Shown one piece after another: positions 1,840 through 17,348 of a DNA stretch of 64,000 nt (its first letter is position 1; every line of letters starts with the position of its first letter). Position numbers and translations under genes: made by a program. The stretch comes from Gottfriedia acidiceleris (GTDB lineage: Bacteria > Bacillota > Bacilli > Bacillales > Bacillaceae_G). The stretch is from assembly GCF_002128425.1 (NCBI RefSeq), contig NZ_NESS01000005.1, positions 124,001 to 188,000 on the forward strand. The letters run 5' to 3'. Below the pieces are notes generated by a model. That model was given only the letters and a program-made list of their open reading frames with translations. It did not search any database and was not told the DNA's origin.

Positions 1840-1933
1840 TCTCCTCTCATTATGTAATCCATATTTCGATGATAATTGAATTATTTATATTCTACAATAA
1901 ATTTAGAATTGAAAAATAATTAGGAGGAAAAAA

Positions 1934-2545
1934 ATGAGTCATTTTACAAATACAAAGTTGATTAAACCTAAAATTCTATACTATGGAACACCTGTGATTT
2001 TACTAAATACGTTGAATGAAGACGGAACAGTTAATATTAGCCCTATGTCATCATCATGGGCTTTAGGAGATTGCATAATATTAGGAATTGGACTTGGCGG
2101 GAAAGCCATTGAAAATTTACAGCGTCATCCTGAATGTGTCATCAATGTACCTAGCCCTTTATTATGGGAGAATGTAGAATTGTTAGCCCCTTACACGGGA
2201 AAAGATCCCGTTCCAGATTCTAAGAAAAATATAGGATTTACATATGAAAAAGAAAAATACAATATCAGTAAATTAACTGCTACAGAGTCACAAACCGTAA
2301 AACCTACAAGAATTACAGAATGCCCAATTCAAATTGAGGCAATCGTAAAAAACATTCGAATACCTGAACATTCACCTGATTTTGCAATTGTTGAGACACA
2401 TGTTATACATGTCCATGCTCATAATGAAATCATAATTGATGAAAATCATATTGATCCAAATAAATGGAGTCCACTAATATACAATTTCCGTCATTATTTC
2501 GGTCTCGGAAATAATTTAGGCAAAACTTTTCGTTCGGAAATTTAA
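1934..2545 (+). CDS. Flavin reductase-like (split-barrel FMN-binding) protein
   Basis: 203 aa with the flavin reductase-like fold: an early strand region (TPVILLNTLNEDGTVNISPMS, then SSWALGD) and a second conserved block (GLGGKAIENLQRHPECVINV). Members bind FMN and act as reductases or oxygenase partners. A strong TAGGAGGA ribosome site precedes the ATG. It is divergent from the ArsR-type gene at 1147-1839, so probable regulation is by that repressor. Its sequence differs from the tyrosine-cluster flavin reductase at 20887-21498, so the two are not recent duplicates. Confidence 0.75.
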   Translation: MSHFTNTKLIKPKILYYGTPVILLNTLNEDGTVNISPMSSSWALGDCIILGIGLGGKAIENLQRHPECVINVPSPLLWENVELLAPYTGKDPVPDSKKNIGFTYEKEKYNISKLTATESQTVKPTRITECPIQIEAIVKNIRIPEHSPDFAIVETHVIHVHAHNEIIIDENHIDPNKWSPLIYNFRHYFGLGNNLGKTFRSEI

Positions 2546-2585
2546 ATATGATTTAGCCAGTTTCAATAATGCTTAAAATATAAAT

Positions 2586-2626
2586 GTCAGATTCCAGTTT
2601 GTAAGGAATCTGACTTCATTGTTTTT
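2586..2626 (+). terminator. Intrinsic terminator after the flavin reductase gene
   Basis: GTCAGATTCC (2586-2595) pairs perfectly with GGAATCTGAC (2605-2614) around a 9-nt loop, followed by a T-rich stretch (TTCATTGTTTTT). It lies 41 bp after the stop at 2545. Confidence 0.75.
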
Positions 2627-2709
2627 ATAAAATTCAACTCCTTTTTTTAACTTCCGCATTGAGTTAGTTTACATAAGATAATTAGTCGTACATGCCTAGG
2701 AAAAGGAAC

Positions 2710-2988
2710 TCACATTTTTAAAGCATCAACATATTGTTTAGCTTCTAATAAAGAAAGGCCTAAAATAGCTCTAACCTCTTTAATTGCTTGAATTTCTTTT
2801 CCTTCTTTTAATAGTTTACGCAATTCATTATTAATCGGATGTTCGGGTACTTCTACTACGTTAGCAATCTGATCTAACGTAACCTTAATATTTTTCATTC
2901 GATTCTCTAGTTTGTTAAGTTTATCAATAACAGTTTTAATAAATACAAAAACAATGACTAACAATAATACAAGAAACGTATATTCCAT
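2710..2988 (-). CDS. Membrane-anchored protein with L7/L12 C-terminal-like domain
   Basis: 92 aa: a single N-terminal transmembrane helix (about residues 4-21), a short heptad-like linker (VIDKLNKLENRMKN), then LLKEGKEIQAIKEVRAILGLSLLEAKQYVDAL. That segment matches the core of the ribosomal protein L7/L12 C-terminal domain (K.GK.I.AIK.VR...GL.L.EAK..VD). In ribosomes this domain contacts translational GTPases, but free-standing membrane-anchored versions have no established role. A TAGGAGATTAGG ribosome site precedes the ATG. The gene at 3029 lies 40 bp upstream on the same strand, so the two may be co-transcribed. Confidence 0.65.
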   Translation of the reverse strand: MEYTFLVLLLVIVFVFIKTVIDKLNKLENRMKNIKVTLDQIANVVEVPEHPINNELRKLLKEGKEIQAIKEVRAILGLSLLEAKQYVDALKM

Positions 2989-3028
2989 CCTAATCTCCTA
3001 CCAATCTATCTATTTATATTAGCTAGCA

Positions 3029-3244
3029 TTAATGAATATCGTTAAATATTTTTTCAAAAAGTTCTAATGGAATCGTAAACTTAGTTGTTTTTTCATTCTT
3101 CCAATAAGTGATAATTTCTACTAGATTCCCTTTTTTCTCAACTTCAAGTAAAGCATTCTCCCCTTTATCTCTTACAGAGACAAATCGGTTACCATTTTTC
3201 TTTTCTTTTTGTTTGTATTCGAAATTTAAATTTATATGGTTCAT
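3029..3244 (-). CDS. Small hypothetical protein (71 aa)
   Basis: A 71-aa basic, soluble-looking protein preceded by TAGGAGGAATTAAAT-ATG, a strong ribosome site, which is the main reason to accept it. The sequence (RFVSVRDKGENALLEVEKK... then TKFTIPLELFEKIF) suggests a small beta-rich fold. I do not recognise a family and assign no function. It lies just upstream of the L7/L12-like membrane protein on the same strand. Confidence 0.55.
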   Translation of the reverse strand: MNHINLNFEYKQKEKKNGNRFVSVRDKGENALLEVEKKGNLVEIITYWKNEKTTKFTIPLELFEKIFNDIH

Positions 3245-3453
3245 ATTTAATTCCTCCTAATACAAATTGGATATTTTAATATTACCATATATTGGTATTA
3301 TCTGTTTTTTAATAAATACTTTTATATAAAATGTTATTTTGACATAAAAAAACTGTCCATTTAGACAGCCTTAAGTAAATTTTATTGAACTAACTCATGC
3401 ATAAAGATAGAGATGTCCGAAATCATTCTCGAAAATGAATATATTTACTAGAT

Positions 3454-3495
3454 ATAAAAAAGAATATCAGACACTTTTTTTACCGTCTGATATTC
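3454..3495 (-). terminator. Intrinsic terminator after the FMN reductase gene
   Basis: GAATATCAGAC (3462-3472) pairs with GTCTGATATTC (3485-3495), 11 bp. On the minus strand it is followed by a T-rich tract, 24 bp downstream of the stop at 3519. Confidence 0.8.
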
Positions 3496-3518
3496 GTAAC
3501 ATAGTTCACTTAATAAAA

Positions 3519-4073
3519 CTATTTTCTCAAGGTTTTTAATGCACCACTCCAAGCAACAACTTGGTCAAGCATTGCATTTACATTATTAAGGTGTAATTCA
3601 GCTGGCTTGAAAGTAGAATAGTTTTCAAAATCGGTAAATAGGGACAATGTAGGGTGAACACGAACATCTGCAATCATTAGCTCACCCATGATTCCTCGTA
3701 AATGTTCAGCTGCACGAGCACCGCCCGTTGAACCATAACTAACGATACCTGCTGCTTTGTTATTCCACGCTTCACGAGCTAAATCAAGTGCATTTTTTAA
3801 GGCTCCTGTTATACTGTGATTATATTCCTGAACGATAAATACGAATCCATCCAAGCTGTTAAGTTTTTCGTTCCAAGCTGCAATACCTGGTTCAGTTCCA
3901 TCAGTTGTTCCAAAAAAAGGTAATTGATAATCAGCAATATCTACAATTTCATAGTTTGCACCATCTCCACGTTTGTCAGCAATTCCTTTAACCCATTCTC
4001 CCACTTGTGGGCTAACTCGTCCCTTTCTTGTACTCCCTAAAATAATACCTACATTTAATTTTTCATTTGTCAT
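3519..4073 (-). CDS. NAD(P)H-dependent FMN reductase family protein
   Basis: 184 aa with the flavodoxin-like fold of NADPH:FMN/azo reductases: GIILGSTRKGRVSPQVGEW is the phosphate-binding N-terminal loop, PFFGTTDGTEP and VQEYNHSITGALKNALD the second flavin-binding segment, and SYGSTGGARAAEHLR the third. Family members reduce FMN, quinones or azo compounds. AGGAGGAAAAAACA precedes the ATG. Immediately upstream (4090-4375) is a decayed marR gene whose stop is 16 bp from this start, so the pair was once a regulator-enzyme operon and this gene may have lost its repressor. Confidence 0.8.
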   Translation of the reverse strand: MTNEKLNVGIILGSTRKGRVSPQVGEWVKGIADKRGDGANYEIVDIADYQLPFFGTTDGTEPGIAAWNEKLNSLDGFVFIVQEYNHSITGALKNALDLAREAWNNKAAGIVSYGSTGGARAAEHLRGIMGELMIADVRVHPTLSLFTDFENYSTFKPAELHLNNVNAMLDQVVAWSGALKTLRK

Positions 4074-6140: not shown

Positions 6141-6731
6141 CTAGGGAGTTAATCCCCTAGTAAATAATGCTACACTTTCTTCAATTAATTTAGTGAACCT
6201 TTCGCTAGTAAATGCAGGATCTTCGCTCATTCTTCCATGAGCCAATCCATAATTCATATAAAGAAAGGTTATCGCAACTTTTTCTGAATCAACGGAAATA
6301 ATATTTTTTCTATTTGCCATTTCTGCAAAATAGTTAATTAAAAATTCTTTTAATGTCTGTGGATGTCTGTGAGAATACTCGCGCAAGCCAGGAACATTCT
6401 CTCCTACTTTCATAATGATTCGGAGCAATTTTCGATTACGATACATAATTTTATGATAATTTTGGCTAATTAACAGTAAATCATCATTGAGGTTCCAGTT
6501 GAGCTTACTTTCAAAAATGGCTCGCATTTCCTCAGCATAATGATATCGATCAATTGCTTGCTCCAATAAGTTTTGCTTACTTTTAAAATGTCTAAATAGG
6601 GTCTTCTCACTAAACCCAGCTTCTTTTGCAATTGCCTCAGTTGTAACCCCGTTATATCCGTTTTTAGAAAAAAGCTCTATCGCTGCAGTTATGATTTTTT
6701 CTGTTGTATCTTGTTTTCGATTTGAAGACAT
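6141..6731 (-). CDS. TetR-family transcriptional regulator
   Basis: 196 aa from the ATG beginning MSSNRKQDTTEKI; a longer in-frame start at 6830 would add an atypical hydrophobic extension spanning the operator. The N-terminal TetR helix-turn-helix is clear (residues about 8-55: IITAAIELFSKNGYNGVTT, EAIAKEAGFSEKTLFRHFKS), followed by an all-helical ligand domain. The MFS pump gene lies directly downstream on the same strand. The perfect palindrome at 6761-6774 overlaps its promoter region, indicating autoregulation and co-control of the pump. Confidence 0.85.
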   Translation of the reverse strand: MSSNRKQDTTEKIITAAIELFSKNGYNGVTTEAIAKEAGFSEKTLFRHFKSKQNLLEQAIDRYHYAEEMRAIFESKLNWNLNDDLLLISQNYHKIMYRNRKLLRIIMKVGENVPGLREYSHRHPQTLKEFLINYFAEMANRKNIISVDSEKVAITFLYMNYGLAHGRMSEDPAFTSERFTKLIEESVALFTRGLTP

Positions 6732-6760
6732 GGCTATTAGTTCACACCTCACTATAATAA

Positions 6761-6774
6761 AGTCAGTACTGACT
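6761..6774. promoter_or_regulatory. TetR operator candidate upstream of tetR
   Basis: AGTCAGTACTGACT is a perfect 14-bp palindrome 29 bp upstream of the TetR-family start codon. A near-identical dyad precedes the adjacent MFS gene. This is the expected layout for an autoregulated TetR repressor. Confidence 0.7.
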
Positions 6775-6941
6775 AACATTAATATATGCAGTTTATAAAA
6801 TATGTTAACCAACAATTGCTTGTAAATCACAAAATTATTATATGTTATAAGGCATTGCCCCTGAGTGAAGGATGATTAAACAGATCTATTTATCTTTAAA
6901 AGCTAACTATTTTATATATTCTTATTTAACTAACGCTTAAA

Positions 6942-7028
6942 GATTACGTTGCAGTTGATTTATATGATGGAAGTATTTTATATGTTTTTACAAAAGATCA
7001 AACAACTATTTGTGATATTGATTTTTAA
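6942..7028 (+). pseudogene. Fragment of an aminoglycoside-phosphotransferase-like protein
   Basis: A 28-codon plus-strand stretch ending in TAA reads DYVAVDLYDGSILYVFTKDQ followed by TTICDIDF. This pattern (vaVD.YDGS.LYdF....ICDiD) is the metal-binding region of small APH-fold kinases. No start or upstream kinase lobe is present. It lies just outside the left end of the 7.6-kb element, in otherwise gene-free DNA from 6832 to 7231 that also has a terminator-like palindrome at 7168-7185. Confidence 0.4.
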
Positions 7029-7231
7029 GTTAGTTCTATCTGGTATCGGTATTTAATTTGTGATTAAAGTAATTAAATTCATGAATGCAAAAATAACATT
7101 GGACCAAAAAAGAAATGAAAAGATTGATAAATTAAAAATAGACTGCCGAAGCAGCCTTTAACAATTGACTAACGCATGCGTTAGTTGAAACAAAAATATT
7201 CATTAAAATTTATATTTTTAGAACCCTTCCT

Positions 7232-7239
7232 TTTGAAAA
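7232..7239. repeat. Left 8-bp target-site duplication of the 7.6-kb element
   Basis: TTTGAAAA lies directly outside the left inverted repeat and is repeated exactly at 14830-14837 directly outside the right one. Confidence 0.85.
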
Positions 7240-7275
7240 GGCTCTGTTAAACTAAAATGTTGATTTTTTGCGTAC

Positions 7276-7307
7276 TAAAAAAAACTGTTTTCACCAAACA
7301 GTCTTTT
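7276..7307 (-). terminator. Intrinsic terminator for the GN.LQA-repeat protein gene
   Basis: ACTGTTT pairs with AAACAGT (7284-7302) around TCACC, followed on the minus strand by eight T residues. It lies about 100 bp beyond the stop at 7408 and just inside the left end of the element. Confidence 0.75.
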
Positions 7308-7319
7308 TAATGCTTATTC

Positions 7320-7339
7320 AACTAAAGCATGCGTTAGTT
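7320..7339. repeat. AACTAA-GCATGC-GTTAGTT palindrome
   Basis: AACTAAAGCATGCGTTAGTT, one copy of a dispersed imperfect palindrome. Others are at 4559-4574, 7168-7185, 9579-9599 and 10033-10052. On the minus strand most are followed by a short hairpin plus T-run, as here (7276-7307), so the unit looks like a palindrome-plus-terminator module behind genes. Confidence 0.65.
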
Positions 7340-7407
7340 CAATAAGATAGTAACGTTTATTTTTTAAAGGTGCGTTTATAATTTTGTCTTAAAGAAGACT
7401 AGAAATC

Positions 7408-8094
7408 TTACGGACTATTCAATTGCATATCTTGAGTAGCTTCTTTTATTGTCCCAATCACCGAAATGACTGATCCTATTGCTTGGATCCAACTACCTGT
7501 CACTACTAATGTTTCTGAATTCTCATTTTTATTTTTTAAATAAGGCTCATAACCAAAACCATTCTTTTTCTTTTTATTTACTACTCCATCAGGACTAAAT
7601 GAATTTCCATTTTCATTGTCATCATCGTTGTTTCCGCTTTTATTTAATTCATATGTTCCACCTATAGCCTGCAATGAGTTTCCTGTGGCTTGCAAAAAGT
7701 TTCCTATAAGGTTTTCTGAATGCCCAGGAAAGGGGGCGAGCTCAAGTCCATGGCCAAAATTAATTGCTCCACCTAAAGCTTGTATCCAGTTACCAGTGAT
7801 GAATAGTTTTTGGTCTATTTCTTTTTTAAAGTCAATAACCAATCCCGTAACTACAATAGAATTTCCAATTGACTGAAATTCCTTCCCAACTGTTCTTAGG
7901 ACATTCCCTTGTACATCAGCTTGTAAAGCATTTCCACCTGCCTGTAAAACATTTCCCAATAAATTTAAGTCATTTCGCAAATTACTTTTTATAAAGTACA
8001 ATGGCGTAGAACCGAGTGCAGCTGAAATCGTTCCGACAGCTACGATCACAGAACCAAATATTGATATAAATACGCTTCCCATGTCAACCGCCAA
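7408..8094 (-). CDS. GN.LQA-repeat protein (DUF6944-like)
   Basis: 228 aa with an N-terminal hydrophobic segment (about 8-35) and a degenerate repeat. LLGNVLQAGGNALQA (about 46-60), GKEFQSIGNSIVVTG (about 70-84), TGNWIQALGGAINFG (about 99-113), IGNFLQATGNSLQAIGG (about 129-145) and TGSWIQAIGSVISVIG (about 198-213) share a GN.(L/I)QA.G pattern. A charged Asn/Asp/Lys-rich insert (about 150-190) separates the last copy. It resembles the repetitive DUF6944 proteins of Bacillus, whose function I do not know. It follows oxalate decarboxylase on the same strand 38 bp downstream, so the two may be co-transcribed. Confidence 0.65.
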   Translation of the reverse strand: MAVDMGSVFISIFGSVIVAVGTISAALGSTPLYFIKSNLRNDLNLLGNVLQAGGNALQADVQGNVLRTVGKEFQSIGNSIVVTGLVIDFKKEIDQKLFITGNWIQALGGAINFGHGLELAPFPGHSENLIGNFLQATGNSLQAIGGTYELNKSGNNDDDNENGNSFSPDGVVNKKKKNGFGYEPYLKNKNENSETLVVTGSWIQAIGSVISVIGTIKEATQDMQLNSP

Positions 8095-8132
8095 CCTGCC
8101 AATAGGTCATATAATTTGTAATGCTTTTTCAA

Positions 8133-9323
8133 TCATTTAGGTATATAGGAAAAACCAGGATATTTCACTACAGGCCATTTCTCTTTGCGTAAAGCACTTA
8201 TTAATTCTGGTCCTACATTTAAGTTACTTTGTACTAATTCATTTGGAGTTAGTGTCATCCATTGATTCAGTGACAAGTCTTCAAAACGGTTGCTTTTGAA
8301 CATCTCTAAAAACCATAATGTTTCGGTACCAGTGTTTTGAATATAGTGTCCAGTAGCAAAGGGTACGTATCCGACATCACCAGCCCGATAGTCAAATGTG
8401 CGAGCTGATCCGTTTCCAGTAAATACAGTCATTCGCCCTTGTCCGGTAAGGTAATACTGCCACTCGTCGTTAGTGGGATGCCAATGAAGTTCTCTCATTG
8501 CACCCGGTTCAATCTCAACAAGTGCTGCTGCAATTGTTTTAGAAATTGGAAAGTTAGAAGAATCTACAATTCGTACACTACCACCAGGCGTTTTGATGGG
8601 TGTTTGTTTCAACAGTTCGTGCTTGAAGGTTAACGGGACTTCTCCGTAGGGTGACTGGACTTCTTGACTTTTCATTGAACCTGGTACCTCCCCCTGATAG
8701 ATATATACCTGTTTAGAAGGAATGGAGTTAAAAGCACTCTCTGGTACTCCGAAATTGGCCGACAGAACATCTTTTGGAGTATGTGCAAACCAGTCGGAGA
8801 TAGATAAGGTGGAAAGATCGGAAAAGTTTCCGTCATCGAAGACGAGTAGAAATTCGCAATGTTCCAGCCCTTGAATCGAATGTGGGATACCTGGGGGGAA
8901 GTACCATAGATCGCCTGGGCCCACGTCGGCAATAAAATTTCGTCCTTGTTGGTCAACCGAGGTTATACGCGCCCGTCCCAATAGCATATAAGACCATTCT
9001 GCCTGTTTATGCCAATGGAGTTCACGAACTCCGCCTGCCGTTAAGCTCATATTTACTCCAGCAAGAGTAGTCGCTATCGGAAGTTCCCGAGCGGTGATCT
9101 CTCGTGACCATCCCCCGTGATTTAATGTCATAGAAGTGTCTGAAAATGAGAATTTCAAATTAGGAACTAAACCTGCATCTGTAATAGGGGGGACGAGCAT
9201 ATTCGGATTTTGAATATCTCTCAAAACATTCCGCGGGCCTGAGTCGATTCCTCCAGCTCCATCACTTCGGATAGGCTGTGGCACATTTCCGCCCACTTGA
9301 TTAATGGTTCGGTTTTCCATCAT
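8133..9323 (-). CDS. oxdC: Oxalate decarboxylase (bicupin)
   Basis: 396 aa, slightly longer than B. subtilis OxdC (385). Converts oxalate to formate and CO2 with two Mn sites. Cupin 1 ligands: H103, H105, E109 ([10 protein letters not shown]) and H148 ([11 protein letters not shown]). Cupin 2 ligands: H280, H282, E287 ([11 protein letters not shown]) and H326 ([12 protein letters not shown]). The flexible active-site lid, SENS in OxdC (general-acid Glu162), reads S168-D-L-S here, a Glu-to-Asp change next to an Asn-to-Leu change that could alter decarboxylase/oxidase balance. The gene is visibly GC-richer than its neighbours, fitting transfer as cargo of the 7.6-kb element. OxdD-type spore enzymes are an alternative assignment. 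Confidence 0.9.
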
Positions 9324-9543
9324 AATACTCCCCTTCTATGGAATTTATCATTGAAAATCCTTTATCATAGGGTATGACCTGGGCTTCGAATTGTTACTGC
9401 ATATTGATAAAACATATGGGCATCCTTTTTTTAAAGAAATGCTCCCTTTAGTTATAGATTAAGATTAATTTAATAACCCACTTATGATCTTTTAATTTCT
9501 GAAAGTAAAATTTCTTGTTCAACTAATCTTCCATTTAGCTCAA

Positions 9544-9599
9544 TAAAAAAATCGACCATACAGTCGATCATGTTGTTCAACTAAAGCACTGCGTTAGTT
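9544..9599 (-). terminator. Palindrome plus terminator module behind the 9607 gene
   Basis: On the minus strand AACTAACGCAGTGCTTTAGTT (9579-9599) is followed by the hairpin ATCGAC-TGTATG-GTCGAT (9551-9568) and seven T residues. It begins 8 bp after the stop at 9607. Same architecture as 7276-7339, showing that the palindrome and the terminator travel as one unit. Confidence 0.7.
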
Positions 9600-9606
9600 G
9601 AATAAG

Positions 9607-9978
9607 TTAAATACTATATGATGTTTTTCTTATATCTAAAACTTCAGCTTTTGAACAATAAAAATGTAATCTATCGTCTTCAAAATCCGTCACTTCAAGA
9701 CTTAAATTCTCCCATCTCCGTTCGCTAATGTCTATTATATCTAACGATATTTGGAGAAAGTTTCCACCAGCTTCAAATTTGATTTTTTGAGGATCATAAA
9801 ACCTAATAATTGTTTTATACCAAGTTCCAGTTCTTTCAATTACAAATTCAATATCAAGAACAGCTTTCTTTTCAAATGCCTCTTTAAACATTTTTAAATG
9901 AAAATCAGTAATTAATTTAACATCAAAAAAAGAAAAATCGCTTATTTTTCTTTTTTCTAAGTCTATATTTTTATTCAT
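9607..9978 (-). CDS. Hypothetical protein (123 aa)
   Basis: A soluble, acidic/aromatic protein with alternating beta-strand pattern (AVLDIEFVIERTGTWYKTII, then FEAGGNFLQISLDIIDI, then DDRLHFYCSKAEVLDIRK). The ATG at 9978 is chosen because GGAGG lies 5 nt upstream; the longer frame to 9999 has no such site. I do not recognise it. Size and strand pattern resemble small immunity-like or DUF proteins, but no toxin is adjacent. It is followed by a palindrome-terminator module. Confidence 0.55.
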   Translation of the reverse strand: MNKNIDLEKRKISDFSFFDVKLITDFHLKMFKEAFEKKAVLDIEFVIERTGTWYKTIIRFYDPQKIKFEAGGNFLQISLDIIDISERRWENLSLEVTDFEDDRLHFYCSKAEVLDIRKTSYSI

Positions 9979-10032
9979 TTTTACCTCCAGATGAACCACT
10001 TAAATAATAACACCCATTATCAAATAATATTG

Positions 10033-10052
10033 AACTAACGCAAGCGTTAGTT
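10033..10052. repeat. AACTAACGCAAGCGTTAGTT palindrome
   Basis: A near-perfect 20-bp palindrome of the dispersed family described at 7320-7339, lying 38 bp after the stop of the 24-aa peptide gene on the minus strand. No T-run hairpin follows this copy. Confidence 0.65.
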
Positions 10053-10089
10053 GCATAAGATATTTTGCTTTTATTTATACAAGAACATA

Positions 10090-10164
10090 TCACTTCTTTT
10101 TTCGTGTATATAGTGAATAAGCTACCAATAGAAATCCAATTATTATAGCTGGCGTAGCATTCAA
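10090..10164 (-). CDS. 24-aa single-helix membrane peptide, TTG start
   Basis: TTG (10162-10164) is preceded 6 nt upstream by GGAGGGG, a very strong ribosome site. The frame encodes MNATPAIIIGFLLVAYSL followed by a basic tail YTRKKK and TGA. One transmembrane helix plus a positive C-terminus is the classic design of small bacterial membrane peptides. It is too short for ordinary gene calling; support is the ribosome site and clean hydrophobic-then-basic layout. Function unknown; a toxin-like or membrane-modulator peptide is possible. Confidence 0.4.
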   Translation of the reverse strand: MNATPAIIIGFLLVAYSLYTRKKK

Positions 10165-10262
10165 GCAATTCCCCTCCAAAATTCCGTTGTTTTTTATAAA
10201 CGTAATGTAATGAAAAAAGAGCCTTGATCGACTCAATTAAGTTCTTTAACTTTTACACAACA

Positions 10263-10571
10263 TTAGTTGAACAAGGGAACTAAAAAACTGAAAATCAGTA
10301 TAAATAAGTAAAAAATCCCCAAAAACATTACCAATCCAACAGTATAGTCATACCTTTTTTTAATCGGGTTAAAATGATTTTTTAAGTCTGTAATTGGCTT
10401 TTCTTCTGTTTTTATAGTTTTAAAAAATTGATTACGTATGAATCCTATGGTAGCAAAAAGTAGACCAATTAATCCAAAAGTACTAGGACTAATTTTATGC
10501 GTTATCCTTAAATAAATGGCAACTAACATTATTAGTAGTAGTACAGGAATAAAATATTTCTTTATTTTCAT
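10263..10571 (-). CDS. Small integral membrane protein (102 aa)
   Basis: Three predicted transmembrane helices: about residues 6-24 (FIPVLLLIMLVAIYL), 32-49 (TFGLIGLLFATIGFI) and 77-100 (VGLVMFLGIFYLFILIFSFL), with a cytoplasmic-type charged loop between helices 2 and 3. The ATG at 10571 has GGAGA five nt upstream; a TTG four codons earlier overlaps that site. No family recognised. A partial copy of the TTAGTTGAA repeat abuts its stop. Confidence 0.55.
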   Translation of the reverse strand: MKIKKYFIPVLLLIMLVAIYLRITHKISPSTFGLIGLLFATIGFIRNQFFKTIKTEEKPITDLKNHFNPIKKRYDYTVGLVMFLGIFYLFILIFSFLVPLFN

Positions 10572-10583
10572 TTGTATCTCCAA

Positions 10584-10940
10584 ATTTTTTTATTTAATTA
10601 TATCATTTGAGATGTATTTGTAATTTGGGGAATTTTTACCTTTTTTAGATAGAATTTAAGATAATTCTTATGCAACTAAACTGCCATTTAGCCACCCATG
10701 CAGCGCAAGCGCTGCACCACAGCGAATGAAAATGTATGGGAAGTGTCTATACTGATACTGACTTTTATCCAGTCAACTGTAATCACTAGGCTTTTTAGTT
10801 AACTCTACTCTTTTTTTTAAGATTGAGCAGAGTTTTCTTTAGTATTGTCATTTATCTGTTGATGAAGAAACTAATTTTCATGATAGACATCCATGCCGCG
10901 TCTGCGGCACCATCAAATGAATGAAAATGTTTTTTATACT
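10584..10940. repeat. Gene-free stretch with two CCATG-hairpin repeats upstream of IS110
   Basis: No coding signal. Two short hairpins follow a CCATG motif: GCAGCG-CAAG-CGCTGC (10703-10718) and GCCGC-GTCT-GCGGC (10895-10908). Both are followed by CACCA and, a little further, AATGAAAATG. A diverged relative is at 4585-4650. Stems differ in sequence but keep pairing, so the fold seems conserved. Such palindromic repeats are frequent targets of IS110/IS1111 elements, which may explain the adjacency. The left end of the IS110 element is not resolved. Confidence 0.45.
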
Positions 10941-11085
10941 AGTCTATCTCCCGACCACCCTGTCAATCCTGTTAATACGGCTGGCGAAGGAAGGTCGATC
11001 AACTATGGTGCTTTAAGCCCGCATGGTAGACTGATTCACTACGACCAGGTGCACCACAAATTGTTGCTCTCAATAGAGAAGCACG
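10941..11085 (+). ncRNA. Candidate IS110 bridge RNA region
   Basis: Upstream of the IS110 gene, AGTCTATC (10941-10948) can pair with GGTAGACT (11025-11032). This encloses CGACC/GGTCG (10952-10956 with 10993-10997). A separate hairpin TGC-TCTC-AATA-GAGA-AGCA follows near 11066-11084. IS110-group elements such as IS621 encode a structured bridge RNA between the left end and the recombinase that chooses donor and target DNA, and this segment has the right place and size. A 66-codon open frame across it has no ribosome site and is taken as non-coding. Loops that bind donor and target were not assigned. Confidence 0.5.
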
Positions 11086-11156
11086 CAGGATAGATTAATC
11101 TAATATGGTTGTTGCACCAGCCTTAATTTTTAATCAGCCTAGGAAGGATAATATGA

Positions 11157-12383
11157 ATGGACGTTGTTAATAATCACTGCTGTGGACTTGATGTTCACAA
11201 AAAGAGCATTACTGCTTGTGCAATTACACCAAAAGGTAAAGAAATAAAAACCTTCGGTACAATGACACATGACCTATTTCAAATGGTGGATTGGATTAAA
11301 ACTAAAGGTTGTACTCAAGTTGCCATGGAAAGTACAGGTGTATATTGGAAGCCAATTTACAATCTACTTGAACTTGAGGAAATACAACCGATGGTTGTAA
11401 ACGCAGCTCATATCAAGGCTGTACCAGGACGAAAAACCGACGTAAAAGATGCAGAATGGATTGCGAAGTTACTTCGTCATGGTCTTCTTCAACACAGTTA
11501 TGTCCCTAATCGGGAACAAAGAGAACTACGTGAGTTAGTTCGTTACCGTCGCAGTCTCGTTGAGGAAAGAGCTAGGGAGATTAGTAGAATTCAAAAAGTT
11601 CTTGAAGGTGCAAATATTAAACTGTCCTCGGTTGCATCTGACATAATGGGTGTCTCAGGTCGTGCGATGATTGAAGCAATTATTAACGGTGTAAATGATC
11701 CTGAAATTTTATCCAGTTTAGCTAAAAGAAGTTTGAAGAAGAAAAAGGATCAATTGGAACGTGCATTAGTAGGTTCCGTCGGACCTCATCAAAAAATGAT
11801 GTTAAAAACACAACTCTCACACATTGAATTTATTGATCAACAGATTGAACTCTTAAGTGTAGAAGTCCAACAACGTATGCAGCCTTATGAAGAAGATATT
11901 GAATTACTTGATACGATTCCTGGAATAGGTAGAGGTCATGCCGAACAACTTTTGGCTGAAATCGGAATCGGTATGGAAATTGCAAATCAATTCCCTTCAG
12001 CTCCGCATATATGTTCGTGGGCTGGGATGGTCCCTGGAAACAATGAAAGTGCTGGAAAAAAAAAGTCTGGAAAAACAAGAAAAGGTAATAAAAAATTACG
12101 CTCAGCACTTGTCGAAGCAGCTCATTCAGCAGCAAAGACTAAAAACACCTATCTTTCTGCTCAGTACCAGCGTTTAGCTGCACGAATTGGAAAAAAACGA
12201 GCAGCAGTCGCGGTTGGACACACTATATTAACTATTGCTTATCACATTTTAAACAGAAGAGTCCCCTATATTGAATTGGGCGCAGATTACTTTGATAAAC
12301 GGAAGAAAGAAATTGTTATCAAGCAATCTATTAAACGATTAGAGACTCTTGGATGTAAAGTTTCAATTGAAGCAATAGCTTAA
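11157..12383 (+). CDS. IS110-family transposase (DEDD recombinase)
   Basis: 408 aa. N-terminal DEDD RuvC-like domain: D in GLDVHKKSITACAI, E in MESTGVYWKP, and the D..D pair in KTDVKDAEWIAKLLRHGLL. A coiled-coil linker (about 115-230) follows. The C-terminal Tnp_20 domain has DTIPGIGRGHAEQLLAEIG and the serine region NNESAGKKKSGKTRKGNKKLR. IS110 enzymes use an RNA guide and a serine nucleophile and make no conventional inverted repeats. AGGAAGG precedes the ATG. The gene looks intact. It is part of the cargo of the 7.6-kb element, next to the IS1595 insertion. Confidence 0.95.
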   Translation: MDVVNNHCCGLDVHKKSITACAITPKGKEIKTFGTMTHDLFQMVDWIKTKGCTQVAMESTGVYWKPIYNLLELEEIQPMVVNAAHIKAVPGRKTDVKDAEWIAKLLRHGLLQHSYVPNREQRELRELVRYRRSLVEERAREISRIQKVLEGANIKLSSVASDIMGVSGRAMIEAIINGVNDPEILSSLAKRSLKKKKDQLERALVGSVGPHQKMMLKTQLSHIEFIDQQIELLSVEVQQRMQPYEEDIELLDTIPGIGRGHAEQLLAEIGIGMEIANQFPSAPHICSWAGMVPGNNESAGKKKSGKTRKGNKKLRSALVEAAHSAAKTKNTYLSAQYQRLAARIGKKRAAVAVGHTILTIAYHILNRRVPYIELGADYFDKRKKEIVIKQSIKRLETLGCKVSIEAIA

Positions 12384-12421
12384 TTTGATCTAAATAAATT
12401 TATTAAAAAAAGACCCGTTTT

Positions 12422-12429
12422 TAAAAATA
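12422..12429. repeat. Left 8-bp target duplication of the IS1595-type element
   Basis: TAAAAATA directly outside the left terminal repeat, repeated exactly at 14719-14726 outside the right one. Confidence 0.85.
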
Positions 12430-12658
12430 GGCTGTTTTCTGAAAGATTGTTGCTCTCTGGATTAAAAACAAACCACTTGTATTTTATGATAAAATATAAG
12501 TGGTTCGAATTATACAAACGGGCAGGATTGTGGAAGAATTGAAGTTATTTCATCTTCAACGAACGTGGATATTAAGTCAATGTATATAAATTATTAAATA
12601 CGTTATATGTACCAACTACCTAGATATATATTTATAAATAAATAGGGAGCGATGCAGA

Positions 12659-13417
12659 TTGGGTGCTTGGGGAGTAGCAATTTTATCCGACGATATAGCC
12701 GAAGATGTTAGCTTAAGATATAAAGACTTATTAGGCGATAATTACTCAAGTGAAGAAGCAAGTAGATTAGTAATTGATGAATTTCAAAATGAGCTAGATG
12801 AAGAAGAGATCACAGCTTTTTGGTTATCGTTTGCTTTAATACAATGGAAATTAGGAAGACTCCAAGACGAAGTAAAATATAAAGCACTTCAAATTATCGA
12901 TAGTGGTAATGATCTTGTACGTTGGGAAGAAGACCCTAAACTAAAAAAGAAACGTCAAGCAGTTCTACTTAAACTAAAAGAACAATTAAATTTACCTCAA
13001 CCACAAGCTAAAAAAGTACCAAAGAGGTTTATAACTGATACATATTTAAAAGCTGGTGATGCCATTAGTTATCAATTACTATCAGGAAATTATATTATTC
13101 TGAAGGTAATTGGCATTATTGAACAATGGAATGGAGATAGATACCCCCTCTTTGAAGTTTGTGATTGGGAAGGTAAGGTATTACCTTCTAAAGAAAAAAT
13201 CAGGCAATTACCACTTAAAGAGTGGACTTGGGAAAATGGAAGTAAAGAAATAAACAAATTGGCAATTTTCCCAGCAGGAAAAAAAGATGACCCAACAAAA
13301 CGGATTGAAGTAGTAGATGAAGATGTAAAAACAATATTAAATATGGAAGCACCATACACTTTATTTACTTGGAAAGAGTTTGATGAAAAATTAAAGCAAT
13401 TTTATCATTTAAAGTAG
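12659..13417 (+). CDS. DUF4259-type protein, passenger of the IS1595 element
   Basis: 252 aa from a TTG start; GGGAG lies 9 nt upstream and the next residues GAWGVAILSDDIAEDV are the DUF4259 signature (MGAWG.....DDA.D). The first ~90 residues are helical (DUF4259-like). The rest has a beta-rich region (AGDAISYQLLSGNYIILKVIG, then YPLFEVCDWEGKVLP) and an acidic end. DUF4259 proteins are often found near polymorphic-toxin immunity genes, but no biochemical role is established that I know. It lies inside the IS1595-type element, opposite to the transposase, so it is cargo that moves with it. Confidence 0.75.
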   Translation: MGAWGVAILSDDIAEDVSLRYKDLLGDNYSSEEASRLVIDEFQNELDEEEITAFWLSFALIQWKLGRLQDEVKYKALQIIDSGNDLVRWEEDPKLKKKRQAVLLKLKEQLNLPQPQAKKVPKRFITDTYLKAGDAISYQLLSGNYIILKVIGIIEQWNGDRYPLFEVCDWEGKVLPSKEKIRQLPLKEWTWENGSKEINKLAIFPAGKKDDPTKRIEVVDEDVKTILNMEAPYTLFTWKEFDEKLKQFYHLK

Positions 13418-13629
13418 TGCAATATAGAGAAAGTAAGAAAGGATCCCAAGTTTGTTAGCTCGCAAACAGGTTAGCAAAGTTTGATATTCTAGTAAATTTC
13501 AGAAAATTATATGTAAGGATCCTAATTTAAATAGGGGGGGCTTTAATGGAGTAGCCGGATCACTTGTATTATAACGCTTAGAGTAAAAATGCTCTGAGAG
13601 TTTTTTGTACAACAAATTACCAAAGGCGG

Positions 13630-14640
13630 TTAACTTCTGATCATTTCAACAGTATAATAATTTGATCTTTGGCAAGCTGAGATAATCATTTGTTCAACTC
13701 GTTTATCAAATGCCAAATTCTTTCCTATTTCTAGCCAGCGAAACCAGTTAAGGTAATTATCCAGATAATATGTTCCGACTCCTTGAAAACGCTCCAACCA
13801 ACCCTTTAGTCTGTTGTGGAAGTTATTAACGTGCTGTATATGATATATACCTTTTTTTACACGTTGCTGCTGACGTTCATTAATCGTCTCGTGCAGCAAG
13901 CCTTTTATCTTAGCGAATTTTTTATAGTTTGTTGCAGTATCAGTGCATAACAAAGCAGATGGGTGAATAAAATCACCTATCACTGCATCAATTTCTTCAG
14001 CTTTAACCCGCCCTGTCCCTGCTTTGCGTGCAATCATATTTCCATTACGGTCTTGAGCCACTACGACAGCAACCTTAAGATTGGAAATTCCTCTTTTTTT
14101 ATCCTTTTCTCCTCTTTTTTTTGCTTTTCTATGATTGATTACGCGGCGGCCTTTTAATGACTCACGAAAGAATGTTTCATCACTCTCGACAATACCTTCT
14201 AACTGTTTGAAGCCGAGGCTCCCTAGTGCGTTCAAGATTTTATGTCTCCAATAAAATGCAGTGGAGATATGTATTTTTAAGCGTTTAGCGATCTTGGGTA
14301 AAGTAACACCCTCAATCATAAGCTCAAAATATTTCACCCATTTTTCTGGATATTTAGAGCCTGAAAAAGGAGTATTAGTCATATCATTGAAAGTTTTATT
14401 GCAATCCTTACATAAATAACGTTGCCTTGAACGATATTTCCCATTGCGTTTTACAGACGTACTTCCACAATGAACGCAACCTATACCTGAAGAAAATCGA
14501 GCTTCACGTATAGATCTGAGTAATTTATCAAATCTATCAGGACTTTCTGGAAACAAATCTTGTTTTATGGCCTTAAATAATGCCATTTGCTGTGACTTAG
14601 TTAGTTCGTTGAAACCCTCGTATACATTTTCCCACATCAA
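13630..14640 (-). CDS. IS1595-family (ISXO2-like) transposase
   Basis: 336 aa. An N-terminal zinc ribbon has two C-x2-C pairs (CVHCG and CKDCN, about residues 56-81), followed by a helix-turn-helix (TLPKIAKRLKIHISTAFYWRHKI). The catalytic ISXO2 domain shows GIVESDETFF, LCTDTATNYKKFA and HVNNFHNRLKGWLERFQGV, the D-D-N/H pattern of this family. The reading frame is intact. TAGGAGGCGTTTATTG precedes the ATG. It sits within its own terminal repeats (12430-14718), and the similarity of those repeats to the outer element's ends suggests it might act on both. Confidence 0.9.
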   Translation of the reverse strand: MMWENVYEGFNELTKSQQMALFKAIKQDLFPESPDRFDKLLRSIREARFSSGIGCVHCGSTSVKRNGKYRSRQRYLCKDCNKTFNDMTNTPFSGSKYPEKWVKYFELMIEGVTLPKIAKRLKIHISTAFYWRHKILNALGSLGFKQLEGIVESDETFFRESLKGRRVINHRKAKKRGEKDKKRGISNLKVAVVVAQDRNGNMIARKAGTGRVKAEEIDAVIGDFIHPSALLCTDTATNYKKFAKIKGLLHETINERQQQRVKKGIYHIQHVNNFHNRLKGWLERFQGVGTYYLDNYLNWFRWLEIGKNLAFDKRVEQMIISACQRSNYYTVEMIRS

Positions 14641-14718
14641 TAAACGCCTCCTATAGAACTGATTATATCAACGTTCAATTAGTATGTGGAAAAAACAACA
14701 ATCTATACGAAAACAGCC

Positions 14719-14726
14719 TAAAAATA
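14719..14726. repeat. Right 8-bp target duplication of the IS1595-type element
   Basis: TAAAAATA, identical to 12422-12429. Confidence 0.85.
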
Positions 14727-14829
14727 AAATAGACAGGGTCTAGTTTCGTATTGCCAAAAAAGTGTAATTATTGATTTATATTTTCAGGATAGTTGAATAA
14801 GAAAATCAACAATCTTCTTTAACAGAGCC

Positions 14830-14837
14830 TTTGAAAA
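14830..14837. repeat. Right 8-bp target-site duplication of the 7.6-kb element
   Basis: TTTGAAAA, identical to 7232-7239, immediately outside the right terminal repeat ending at 14829. Confidence 0.85.
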
Positions 14838-14873
14838 TAGAGTCAGATAATCTTAAAAAATCTCAAATAATAC

Positions 14874-15842
14874 TCAAGGAAATTTTAAATTGGCTAATCG
14901 CTCTTCCAAAATCACGCGCAGCTCATTAGGAATCCTCTCAAATTCGACCCCTTTTCCCAAAAACAAAAGCCAATCCGCATAATACTCTATCGCCTCAACA
15001 TCGGTTACATCCAGCTGAACATTGAAAATCCCACTCGACTGAAACATCCCAGTAAATGACAAAACAATACCCGGCGGGTGCATACGCTTAAAGCGCTGAA
15101 TCCCAGTTGAATCAAGCTTCACAACTAGATTGGACTCACGTGCATAAATCAGTTTTTTGTTTAAAATCTCTTGCTCAGACCATTTCATCTCCTGCTCAGA
15201 AATTGCAGAATCCCGCAGCATCTCAACAGGTAAATAACGAAACTCATCCGAATCGAAATCATAAACCTCAACCAGCCACTGAGCGTTCGAGTTAAAAATA
15301 TGCAATAAAAAAACGTCCATCAACTCTGGCAAGCCAGGAGTCAGCTCATAAGTCACGCGCAAATGCTTATCCCGTACAGCAAGAGTAATCAGTTTATTCA
15401 GCTCCGTAGGCGCAGCGTCATCGAGTTCCAAAAGATTCGGATTGGCAGGATTTGTATTTTCAAAAAGCAAGATATTATTCAACTCGATCAACTCGTCTTG
15501 CTGGGTTTGCGACGCGATGCCGATGAGTTTTTCAGTGATTGAGCGACGATTTTGCAGATAAGGCAGCTGCGAATTTTTCGAGGCGATAAAGCTGATAAAC
15601 ATCGCCTTCAGCTCTTCTGCCGTGAAGCGGGTGGCGGGCAGATACTGATTTTGCAGGACATAGTAGCCACCACCACGACCAAGCTCGGACGTCAGCGGAA
15701 ATCCCATAGCCTGAATCTCGTTAATGTCGCGGATTGCCGTCGCGCGGGATATCTTGAACTCACGCTGAATCTCGGCAATCGTAAAATGTGCGCGATTATT
15801 TATGTAGCGCATGATCAGGTTCACTCGTTCTATTTTCTTCAT
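14874..15842 (-). CDS. YafY-type regulator (HTH_11 plus WYL domain)
   Basis: 322 aa. The N-terminal helix-turn-helix (IMRYINNRAHFTIAEIQREF, then KISRATAIRDINEIQAMGF) is followed by YYVLQNQYLPATRFTAEE and a C-terminal WYL-type ligand domain (LRVTYELTPG..., QWLVEVYDFDSDEFRYLPVEM). WYL regulators bind small ligands or nucleic acids and control neighbouring genes. It is divergent from two effector-binding-domain genes at 16089 and 16830. The base composition is clearly higher in GC than the rest of the window and stays so to about 17300, which suggests a block acquired from another Firmicute. Shared operator-like repeats flank its promoter. Confidence 0.85.
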   Translation of the reverse strand: MKKIERVNLIMRYINNRAHFTIAEIQREFKISRATAIRDINEIQAMGFPLTSELGRGGGYYVLQNQYLPATRFTAEELKAMFISFIASKNSQLPYLQNRRSITEKLIGIASQTQQDELIELNNILLFENTNPANPNLLELDDAAPTELNKLITLAVRDKHLRVTYELTPGLPELMDVFLLHIFNSNAQWLVEVYDFDSDEFRYLPVEMLRDSAISEQEMKWSEQEILNKKLIYARESNLVVKLDSTGIQRFKRMHPPGIVLSFTGMFQSSGIFNVQLDVTDVEAIEYYADWLLFLGKGVEFERIPNELRVILEERLANLKFP

Positions 15843-15850
15843 ATTTTTAT

Positions 15851-15867
15851 TGTATCAAAAATGTAGC
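15851..15867 (-). promoter_or_regulatory. Operator-like repeat near the WYL regulator start
   Basis: TGTATCAAAAATGTAGC lies 8 bp upstream of the regulator's start codon. A matching sequence (TGTATCAAAAAATGATAC on the minus strand, within 16018-16035) precedes the divergent genes. The second copy contains the dyad GTATCA-N5-TGATAC. A site shared by both promoters suggests the binding sequence of the WYL regulator. Confidence 0.45.
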
Positions 15868-16017
15868 AAATTAAATAACATTAATGACAGAGTTACATTT
15901 AATTACTCAAAATAAAAAATGCTATATAGTGCAAAGCAGCTTGTGCTGACCAGGTCTTTTAAAGTATGTAAGGGGAAAAGTTTATTAAAACTTTATTTTT
16001 TTGATTTTCGATAAAGA

Positions 16018-16034
16018 GTATCATTTTTTGATAC
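16018..16034. promoter_or_regulatory. GTATCA-N5-TGATAC dyad upstream of the effector-binding gene
   Basis: GTATCATTTTTTGATAC is a 6+5+6 dyad 55 bp upstream of the start at 16089. It is related to the repeat at 15851-15867 and is a candidate operator for the divergent WYL regulator. Confidence 0.45.
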
Positions 16035-16088
16035 ATTTGGCTAATAGAATCATCTTGTAAAGAATAAATCCACTAAGGAGAGAGCAAA

Positions 16089-16568
16089 ATGTCTAAATAC
16101 TCAATTAAAACAATCTCAGAAAACTACAAAATGACTGCCTTCGGTGTTTCACTTGAAGACTACAACGACTGGGCAGGTAATGCAGCAAAAACTGCAGCGA
16201 AAAAAGCTGAAATCACTGAAAATGGTAAGCTAGCTGAACTTCTCGCGATAGCTGACGGGCAAGAATATCAAATCAACTACAGCATCGACCACAAGGCTTG
16301 GCGAGGCTTTGGCGTGATGGGTGAGTTCGACGTTGTAGGCGCGGTCGTCCTTGATTTCCTCGCTGGCGACTACCTGGTCGTGCACGGCACAGGCACTAAC
16401 AAAGATCGCCTTGCTGATGAAATCACAGGCAAGGTTTTCAGCGGCATGTTGCAAGAAATCACAGACTATAAATACGTTGGTCCTGGTAACTCAACATTTG
16501 TCAAAGCAGATGAAAACGGTGAATTCTACTGCGAAATGTGGCTTCGTGTAAAAAAGGTCGAAGGCTAA
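16089..16568 (+). CDS. GyrI-like/AraC effector-binding domain protein (copy 1)
   Basis: 159 aa, a single effector-binding (GyrI-like) domain: two repeats of a beta-alpha-beta-beta type, ending in ITGKVFSGMLQEITDYKYVG, PGNSTFVKADENGEF and YCEMWLRV. Such stand-alone domains bind hydrophobic or cationic ligands and can sequester them or inhibit gyrase. AAGGAGAGAGCAAA precedes the ATG. Its C-terminal half aligns closely with the protein at 16830-17306 (ITDY.YVG..N.T..KA...G.FY.E.W..V), so the two arose by duplication. Control by the divergent WYL regulator is likely. High GC relative to the window. Confidence 0.75.
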   Translation: MSKYSIKTISENYKMTAFGVSLEDYNDWAGNAAKTAAKKAEITENGKLAELLAIADGQEYQINYSIDHKAWRGFGVMGEFDVVGAVVLDFLAGDYLVVHGTGTNKDRLADEITGKVFSGMLQEITDYKYVGPGNSTFVKADENGEFYCEMWLRVKKVEG

Positions 16569-16601
16569 ACTCTGTCAAATTTGTCAAAATCAAAAAACGA
16601 G

Positions 16602-16621
16602 GTCTGTCAAATTTGACAGAC
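16602..16621. promoter_or_regulatory. Perfect 20-bp palindrome between the two effector-binding genes
   Basis: GTCTGTCAAATTTGACAGAC is perfectly self-complementary with no loop. An incomplete copy (CTCTGTCAAATTTGTCA) lies 20-30 bp upstream at about 16570-16586. Absence of a loop and of a T-run argues against a terminator and for an operator (core TGTCAAATTTGACA). The cognate regulator is not identified. Confidence 0.5.
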
Positions 16622-16655
16622 TCTACTTTAAGAAGAAAAACTCACTAAATTCATC

Positions 16656-16811
16656 ATGAACAGAGCGCCCTTTGGGCAAAAGTCTCTAATTCTGAGAACA
16701 TTTTGGCAGAATACACTGGAAGCTTTTGGTGGTAATGAGGGCTCTTACTTGACCAATTTGGAATTCGTTGTTATTTTGAAGCGGAAACCGACCTCTCAGA
16801 AAAAAATCTGA
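16656..16811 (+). pseudogene. C-terminal gene fragment (51 codons) between the effector-binding genes
   Basis: An in-frame stretch contains TFWQNTLEAFGGNEGSYLTN followed by LEFVVILKRKPTSQ and a TGA. The helix-strand pattern ending in LEFVVILKRKP looks like the end of a larger enzyme (a SAM-methyltransferase-like C-terminus is one possibility). No ribosome site precedes the only ATG. It is most likely debris of a gene deleted between the two paralogues. Identification is uncertain. Confidence 0.35.
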
Positions 16812-16829
16812 AAAAAAAGGAGTACTTAC

Positions 16830-17306
16830 ATGGCAAATTACACACTTGAACATAAAAAAACATTCACATTGACCGCTTATGGTTTTTCAATCCAGTCGAA
16901 TTTCCAAGACATGCAAGCTTTACAAAAGGAAAAAGCTGAGTTTTGGGCTTTACTCAAGGCTGACGGGCGTTTTGATAAGCTCAAAGACGCAGCAAAAGAC
17001 GATCGCGAATGGTCAGTCAACGAAGTATATCAAGGCAAACCGTGGAATTATTTTGCGGTTGAAGCTGGCAAATCCGTGTCTGACGCAACTCGCATCATCG
17101 AGTTTCCAGAAAGCGAGTACATCGTGGTCGCAGGAAATGGCGACAAGGAAACTTTGTTTGATCAGCTAACATACCGTGCTTTTGGCGAAGTCTTGGCCCA
17201 AATCACTGACTACGCTTACGTTGGCGGTCCAAATGCGACTTATCGCAAAGCTAACGTGGACGGCACTTTCTATGGGGAATTTTGGGTACCTGTGGTTAAA
17301 AAATAA
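16830..17306 (+). CDS. GyrI-like/AraC effector-binding domain protein (copy 2)
   Basis: 158 aa, paralogue of the protein at 16089-16568. The shared end is LTYRAFGEVLAQITDYAYVG, GPNATYRKANVDGTF, YGEFWVPV. The first half differs more, with a Trp/Asp-rich segment (DDREWSVNEVYQGKPWNYF). AAAGGAGTACTTAC precedes the ATG. Ligand unknown. A strong terminator follows at 17349, closing the transcription unit. Confidence 0.75.
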   Translation: MANYTLEHKKTFTLTAYGFSIQSNFQDMQALQKEKAEFWALLKADGRFDKLKDAAKDDREWSVNEVYQGKPWNYFAVEAGKSVSDATRIIEFPESEYIVVAGNGDKETLFDQLTYRAFGEVLAQITDYAYVGGPNATYRKANVDGTFYGEFWVPVVKK

Positions 17307-17348
17307 TAATAAAAAATCATGTAAAAAAGGATTTTTTCAATTTGTTGT

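Follow-up and report, generated by a model that had tools for sequence, protein, structure and literature searches.

Mobile insertion cassettes and insertion sequences (IS) with passenger genes are already known, and the former are described, in excerpts of two reports, as units with IS-type ends and passenger genes that lack a transposase of their own and are activated by a cognate transposase (PMC3129680, PMC2266710). Here we describe a 7.6-kb island in a window of 64,000 nt from Gottfriedia acidiceleris (contig NZ_NESS01000005.1, positions 124,001 to 188,000), which resembles such cassettes in having IS-type ends, passenger genes and no transposase of its own. Probably, judging from sequence comparisons, it is a vehicle with IS1595-type ends that is moved in trans by an enzyme of one clade of that family (clade 2, see below) and was loaded with integron-like cassettes by a XerA-type recombinase. 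The transposon part of this reading rests on direct comparison, the cassette part on borders, co-occurrence and one exchanged vehicle. MIC231 of Bacillus cereus is reportedly a mobile insertion cassette with IS231/IS4 ends. Unlike MIC231, the island has IS1595-type ends, an 8-bp target duplication, a larger size, site-bounded cassettes and copies with different genes in many genomes of the genus. The IS1595 family and "transporter IS" with passenger genes are said to have been treated by Siguier in 2009. The island shares with these the cognate transposase family, GGC ends and the 8-bp duplication, whereas it lacks its own cognate transposase and contains several cassettes instead of one passenger gene.

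A second group of relevant systems is defined by cassettes. Integron sites have boxes of the type RYYYAAC...GTTRRRY, which palindromes in gene arrays of G. acidiceleris appear to match, and Tn402 carries class 1 integrons. The arrays resemble integrons in their small genes, mostly on the same strand and with palindromes between them, in a recombinase encoded opposite to the cassettes, in the sharing of cassettes between replicons and in carriage by a transposon. They differ from integrons in that the recombinase is XerA/XerD-like and fails the integron integrase model, and in that two 12-8-12 palindromes (B, then A) take the place of a canonical attC. The pdif modules of Acinetobacter plasmids likewise consist of genes between Xer-type sites, whereas the system described here is chromosome- and array-based, has its own recombinase and a different site sequence. 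A broader proposal, which is tentative and to which we give slightly less than an even chance, is that Bacillales have an integron-like system of their own, in which a XerA-type recombinase shuffles cassettes at paired A and B sites in chromosomal and plasmid arrays and IS1595-ended transposons serve as movable, reloadable platforms, comparable to Tn402. According to an excerpt of the IntegronFinder 2.0 report, integrons are extremely rare in Firmicutes, the reported cases being one complete integron, in Limnochorda pilosa, and a few clusters of attC sites that lack an integrase (PMC9024848). In the open-licence PMC literature, as represented by titles and the beginnings of abstracts, no such arrays or IS1595-ended cassettes are described for Bacillales among the matches listed. 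If true, the broader proposal would add a counterpart in Bacillales that has a recombinase of its own, a transposable carrier and dozens of sites per genome, and would explain the movement of single accessory genes in soil bacilli. It would also offer a model from Gram-positive bacteria for the origin of cassette systems from Xer enzymes, in which the sites are clear and the recombinase is small.

The boundaries of the island were confirmed. The original prediction, made from the letters of the window, had proposed inverted ends agreeing in about 24 of 28 positions and matching 8-bp duplications, and this held exactly: the island (7240-14829) is bordered on both sides by TTTGAAAA, and its 28-bp terminal repeats are identical at 24/28 positions in inverted orientation (Table 1). 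A search of the region 6500-15600 for an 8/8 direct repeat combined with inverted ends matching at 20/28 positions or better retrieved two pairs, compared to a total of zero in 200 block-wise shuffles; the output of this test was a count only, and the second pair was taken to be the nested IS1595 element discussed below. It had also been predicted that everything between the ends was inserted as one unit, and a search for the empty site in relatives had been suggested. Such a site is present in G001, a genome of the same genus, in which locus L280 aligns at 1429-1499 with window positions 7168-7238 (91.5%) and at 1493-4005 with 14830-17323 (89.7%). The two alignments overlap by 7 bp, which are the target CCTTCCTTTTGAAAGTATAGTCAG; the 8-mer differs at one base, so that the single copy in G001 reads TTTGAAAG. 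In G007 the right flank aligns to window position 14830 and the target follows uninterrupted, while on the left only a short homology was recognized, by eye and without alignment. The homology of G004 and G005 is lost before the junction, at 14853 and 14860. The right flank has matches in 10 of 13 genus genomes including the host (five strong, five weak), no match in the other three, and no match when used as a query against plasmids. The whole island as a plasmid query retrieved two records, both matching only the IS1595 transposase part. The empty site in G001, joined by G007 as judged by eye, shows that the island was inserted as a single unit with these boundaries.

The ends belong to a distinct subgroup of the IS1595 family, GGCTCTGTTAAA...TGTTGAT. 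The pattern has 17 matches in the host genome, which a weight matrix resolves into seven elements with target duplications of 8/8 in five cases and 7/8 in two: the island, C45:143098-147967, C43:115133-117232, C42:275161-276025, C3:42222-42948, C3:117208-117694 and C1:579960-580729. Four single ends (C12, C11 and two on C23) and one internal end (C45:147125) remain unpaired. Elements with the same ends and different cargo, for which the original prediction had recommended a search, thus exist in the host genome, where they carry single genes or small sets that are mutually unrelated, and elsewhere in the genus. The end pattern is present in all 13 genus genomes, the host included, and, allowing up to one mismatch, in 99/348 genomes of the order, representing 51/126 genera; the reversed-pattern control was 0 in every row listed. 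Genome G262 of the order contains 95 end matches.

The transposase that goes with these ends was found outside the genus. A 3.0-kb element of G121, which shares these ends and is flanked by an 8/8 duplication, contains an IS1595-family transposase (NF033547, 214.2 bits). We surveyed 107 loci with IS1595 transposases (77 + 30), assigning each by bit score to the closer of two enzymes, that of G121 (clade 2) and that of the IS1595 element nested in the island (clade 1); 54 loci had an 8/8 duplication and matching ends around the gene, and the 53/107 without a clear end pair were dropped. GTTAA-type ends surrounded the gene in 18/18 clade-2 loci. The 36 loci closer to the nested enzyme had TTTC/TTTC (34), TTTC/TTTA (1) or GTTCG (1) ends and in no case GTTAA. 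Because of this distribution, the island ends are assigned to clade 2, and the nested enzyme is probably not the mobiliser. Inside the island only the transposases of an IS110 and of the clade-1 IS1595 element are present, in agreement with the predicted lack of its own enzyme. The predicted mobilisation in trans by an IS1595-type enzyme is upheld as far as the ends pair with clade 2 of this family, whereas the nested enzyme belongs to the wrong subgroup and the search of the draft genome yielded no cognate one. G012, from the same genus, retains a broken clade-2 transposase gene (56-61%).

The cargo between the ends is delimited by two kinds of sites. Site B is a TTATTCAACTAA-CGCATGCG-TTAGTTGAATAA palindrome that follows a gene and is accompanied by a terminator-like hairpin. 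Site A has arms as in B and an asymmetric core, ATGGCAGA, and is positioned before a gene. The arm pattern occurs 12-123 times per genus genome, whereas the reversed control gave no match in 12 genomes and 2 matches in the remaining one. In nine array loci, 2/112 sites lie inside an open reading frame (ORF) of at least 60 aa; of the 43 A sites in these loci, 34 face a same-strand ORF within 350 bp and four have no ORF there. The association of the sites with transposon ends was analyzed for 15 cargo-bearing elements with matching duplications from six genus genomes (host seven, G004 three, G001 two, and G002, G003 and G011 one each); pairs without a matching duplication (G001 C2, G003 C23) and miniature inverted-repeat transposable elements (MITEs) were left out. 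An inward-facing site A stands beside one end repeat in 12/15 elements, in each case with a score above all 300 shuffles, at a distance within 1 bp in 11 elements and of 41 bp in one. By eye, some elements have further far-end B sites with an inserted base or in a worn-down form. In the G121 element, which is from another genus, a perfect A-like hairpin directly adjoins the end. When 29 ends of loci with a single end were scanned across the order, only two had such a hairpin, and one of these two was from the genus; many of the remaining ones are MITEs.

In the island itself, the hairpin module at the left end has matches of 101-137 bp at 87.6-88.9% in L076, L080 and L094 and of 73-78% in other loci, and the A-terminator-B junction at 9507-9610 resembles junctions of arrays and other elements at 75-88%. 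Folding of five B-terminator-A junctions resulted in z-scores of -3.0, -1.0, -5.7, -3.0 and -4.3, which derive partly from the terminator hairpin. The box order of these junctions is presumably that of attC. A B-like palindrome is also located in the left flank of the island, at 7162-7193, about 45 bp from the insertion, and is present in the G001 empty site as well.

Sites of the same kind cluster in cassette arrays of the host genome, at C12:191-212 kb, C44:174-181 kb, C25, C23:437-443 kb and others, which are runs of small genes separated by B or B-terminator-A. Arrays are also present at C1 contig ends. The C12 array (L055:1500-20000, G000:C12:191.5-210 kb) encodes a tyrosine recombinase of 292 aa, P0002 (L055:3074-3952, minus strand), opposite to the array direction and adjoining a site A (L055:4008) that looks like the other A sites. 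P0002 matches XerA/XerD models. Its closest plasmid relative is 93.5% identical and is encoded in CP053689.1, which is filed as Arthrobacter citreus NEB 577. Positions 113788-142663 of this record (L301) contain 34 sites in 28.9 kb (reversed control 1), arranged as same-strand cassettes separated by sites. The P0002 region matches CP053689.1 over 1036 bp at 91.3%, and the matching stretch starts and ends at sites in both records, so that the recombinase gene itself is bounded like a cassette. Stretches of CP053689.1 are about 90% identical to DNA of the host; the Actinomycetota label looks wrong, and this strain probably belongs to the Bacillales and is related to the window's host.

Sites with the same arms and other cores were sought at ten additional loci from other genera. 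Near seven homologues of the recombinase (48-64% identity) 7, 0, 4, 1, 3, 7 and 2 sites were found, near two distant homologues (39% and 35%) 1 and 0, and in a plasmid stretch of Bacillus arachidis, which had been found through its site, 3. Shuffles of these loci gave 0 to 0.25, and the corresponding values for CP053689 were 25 versus 0.4. Plasmids of Metabacillus dongyingensis (L308) and Cytobacillus spongiae (L309) have recombinase homologues (48-50%) among single genes of mixed functions. The gene runs are mostly on one strand, each with an IS110 gene, and have 7 and 2 sites, respectively; both stretches look like further arrays despite the few recognizable sites.

One cassette of the island is shared with an array. 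The window stretch 9560-10087 is 89.8% identical at the DNA level, over 529 bp, to an array cassette in G001, and the identity extends 13 bp beyond one B site and 29 bp beyond the next. The original prediction had named relatives carrying the same genes without these ends as contrary evidence. This applies to one cargo gene, which in G001 lacks the ends; because the gene is part of a cassette array with the same sites in that genome, it points to modular cargo instead of contradicting the inserted unit. In a survey of 24 shared stretches of at least 250 bp between host loci and other records, 18/48 stretch ends were near, i.e. within 40 bp of, a site of the host record (21/48 counting either record), compared to 15.4% of the bases. 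An exchange within one vehicle is indicated by a comparison of the host element C3:42222-42948 (727 bp, one gene) with the C7 element of G001 (5863 bp, several genes). Both have common flanks, orientation, duplication (TAAAAATA) and end modules, while their interiors have no homology beyond the end modules and a 74-bp stretch. The simplest reading of this apparently orthologous pair is one old insertion whose cargo was replaced in situ; alternatively, the same 8-mer may have been hit twice independently. Two further pairs, host C43/G002 and host C3b/G004, were not counted as orthologous vehicles because their duplications or right flanks mismatch, and they may therefore be independent insertions.

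The island was later invaded by other elements. The site A beside its right end is interrupted by an IS110, both borders of which are in the window; one border recurs at C11:55.4 kb (L003) and the other at C12:507 kb (L074). IS110-family elements of the IS1111-attC group target attC. The IS110 in the island is similar in that it has inserted into a cassette site and its borders match at three places, and differs in that its target is site A and not a canonical attC. The nested IS1595 element, which the original prediction had recognized, sits with its own duplication in the 3' part of the IS110. At C12:507 kb, a related stretch continues without the nested element (87% over 253 bp, 3 gaps). 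As the A site is cut by the IS110 and the nested element is inside the IS110, the order of events would be the vehicle with its cassettes, then the IS110, and the nested IS1595 last. The cargo seems to consist of cassettes bounded by A and B sites, with two successive later insertions, and not of random DNA.

These observations can be combined to a model. The island would be a non-autonomous DDE transposon, i.e. a mobile insertion cassette. An IS1595 transposase of the GTTAAA subgroup, supplied in trans, would recognize the 28-bp ends, cut out or copy the unit and join it to a staggered target, leaving the 8-bp duplication TTTGAAAA. In this model, the cargo is a short run of site-bounded cassettes arranged as end repeat - site A - gene - site B - terminator - ... 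- end repeat, and cassettes of the same kind fill the long arrays. A XerA-type tyrosine recombinase encoded in the arrays most likely exchanges cassettes at A and B, which would make the transposon a movable docking platform. Afterwards, the A site next to the right end would have been hit by an IS110, which in turn would have received an IS1595 of the other subgroup. Both the trans-acting transposase and recombination by P0002 at A and B are steps that we infer from the comparisons.

Three other explanations have to be weighed against this model. It seems quite improbable that the nested IS1595 transposase also mobilises the outer island, even though it is the sole full-length IS1595 transposase found in the genome and the ends of its element show partial similarity to the right end of the island (24 nt, 75%). 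The end types of its clade, TTTC on both sides in 34/36 loci, and the exclusive pairing of GTTAA with the other clade led to its rejection as mobiliser; furthermore, it must have arrived later, because it is located inside its own element with its own duplication, within the IS110. A composite transposon or a genomic island between two IS copies, or an element of the IS6/Tn3 type, is very improbable. IS6 elements also have 8-bp duplications and GG ends, and inside a G002 element with the same ends as the island, 68 bp from the left end, there is a transposase pair (L079:1017-2404) that was recognized as IS3-like by eye only, so that an end-adjacent transposase need not be IS1595. This pair was taken as a later insertion. 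In the window, no IS transposase ORF abuts either outer border, and IS1595 transposases recur between these ends together with 8/8 duplications; the loci concerned came from IS1595 searches, and other transposase families were sought only in individually opened elements. The third explanation is a plain mobile insertion cassette, in which IS1595-type ends move random neighbouring genes in trans, A and B are transcription-related repeats or resemble repetitive extragenic palindromes, and exchange occurs by homologous recombination. It would account for the ends, the duplication and the empty site without anything further, both sites are palindromic, B adjoins terminators, and many elements have no recognizable form of one site. 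We nevertheless regard it as unlikely. The A core is asymmetric and faces a same-strand ORF in 34/39 cases with an ORF nearby, sites are nearly absent from ORFs, and shared cassettes break near sites above chance. In addition, a tyrosine recombinase gene is bounded by sites, sites with identical arms and different cores lie close to its homologues in several other genera, and the IS110 inserted in site A has both borders in the window and one border each at two other places.

Several observations weigh against the preferred model of an IS1595-ended vehicle loaded by a recombinase. All support is comparative, and neither transposition nor recombination was observed. With the clade-2 enzyme as a query, the host draft genome gave no better match than the nested enzyme (39%), apart from which there were just fragments at C1:732 kb, and present mobility is doubtful because no cognate transposase was found there. 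In the site analysis, site A did not pass in 3/15 elements (the window element, in which it is split by the IS110, C3b and the G011 element), and an ungapped site B at the far end passed in only 4/15. Five of the 39 A sites with an ORF nearby face an ORF on the opposite strand, and the short MITEs with the same ends have no A or B sites by eye. P0002 remains below the XerA cut-off (NF040815, 208.6 versus 220) and fails the integron integrase model (TIGR02249, 90.2 bits versus 265). Near the recombinase homologues, sites are absent in Peribacillus simplex (0) and scarce in Niallia taxi (1) and in Cytobacillus spongiae (2). Lastly, both ends are near sites in only 6/24 shared stretches (host record) or 7/24 (either record), and the stretches are not independent, because several are IS110 copies or element flanks.

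Table 1. Features of the island and its borders (window positions).
Feature	Positions	Strand	Basis or remark
Target-site duplication, left	7232-7239		TTTGAAAA; one copy, TTTGAAAG, at the G001 empty site
Left terminal inverted repeat, IS1595 GTTAAA subgroup, terminator/B side	7240-7267	+	End comparison
Terminator-like hairpin and T-run by left end	7284-7308	-	Sequence; similar module beside ends of other elements
Site B, palindrome TTATTCAACTAA-8-TTAGTTcAATAA	7314-7345		32/34; best of 300 shuffles 21
DUF6944 protein, cargo	7408-8094	-	PF22116, 3.6e-51
Bicupin, oxalate decarboxylase family, cargo	8133-9323	-	TIGR03404, 577.8 bits (cut-off 254.2)
Site A, core TCTTCCAT (ATGGAAGA on minus strand)	9515-9546	-	Pattern scan
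Site B with one extra base	9573-9606		Terminator-like hairpin adjacent, ~9551-9568
Family-less protein of 123-130 aa, cargo	9607-9978	-	Array cassette in G001, 89.8% DNA identity
Site B	10027-10058		G001 cassette identity ends 29 bp past site
Small membrane-like protein (by eye), 106 aa, no specific family, cargo	10263-10583	-	Family searches
Gene-side part of site A formerly abutting right end, cut by IS110	10666-10691	-	Border comparison
IS110-family element in site A, ends approximate, split by nested IS1595	10692-14791	+	Borders recur at C11:55.4 kb / C12:507 kb
IS110 transposase	11157-12383	+	NF033542, 278.2 bits (cut-off 140)
Left target duplication of nested IS1595, TAAAAATA	12422-12429		Right copy 14719-14726
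Nested IS1595-family element, other clade	12430-14718		Ends GGCTGTTTTC...GATTGTTG
Passenger ORF of nested element, 252 aa	12659-13417	+	No Pfam, NCBIfam or PADLOC match
Transposase of nested element, IS1595 family	13630-14640	-	NF033547, 209.5 bits (cut-off 75); PF12762
Right-end part of split site A, CTTATTCAAC..	14792-14801	-	Border comparison
Right terminal inverted repeat, A side	14802-14829	-	End comparison
Target-site duplication, right	14830-14837		TTTGAAAA

The first cargo gene of the island, which the original prediction had labelled a "GN.LQA-repeat protein", was reassigned to DUF6944. A PADLOC search for defence functions with four proteins, the oxalate decarboxylase not among them, gave no match. 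The cargo of other elements includes a plsY-like acyltransferase, a YCII protein, a Cys-rich CWC protein, a HIT protein, GNAT enzymes, a sigma factor next to a probable anti-sigma gene (the latter by eye) and a cell wall hydrolase. DNA related to the passenger ORF of the nested element is present at G000:C12:227 kb (75% identity).

The MITEs share the GTTAAA ends (L087-L092, L216, L217, L220-L222, L229, L230:2533-2662), many of them with 7/8 or 8/8 duplications. Most are about 130-280 bp long; the lengths range from 95 to 282 bp in 15 stretches, and a single further one measures 554 bp. Nearly all have a GC-rich, GACTCCTGCGGGAG-like core instead of cassettes. Owing to this core and to the lack of sites noted above, they were rejected as empty platforms. 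An Rfam search of seven MITE-bearing loci had no match at the MITEs themselves. Elsewhere in the window, PreQ1 and purine riboswitches are located at 26572-26616 and 60873-60974, respectively.

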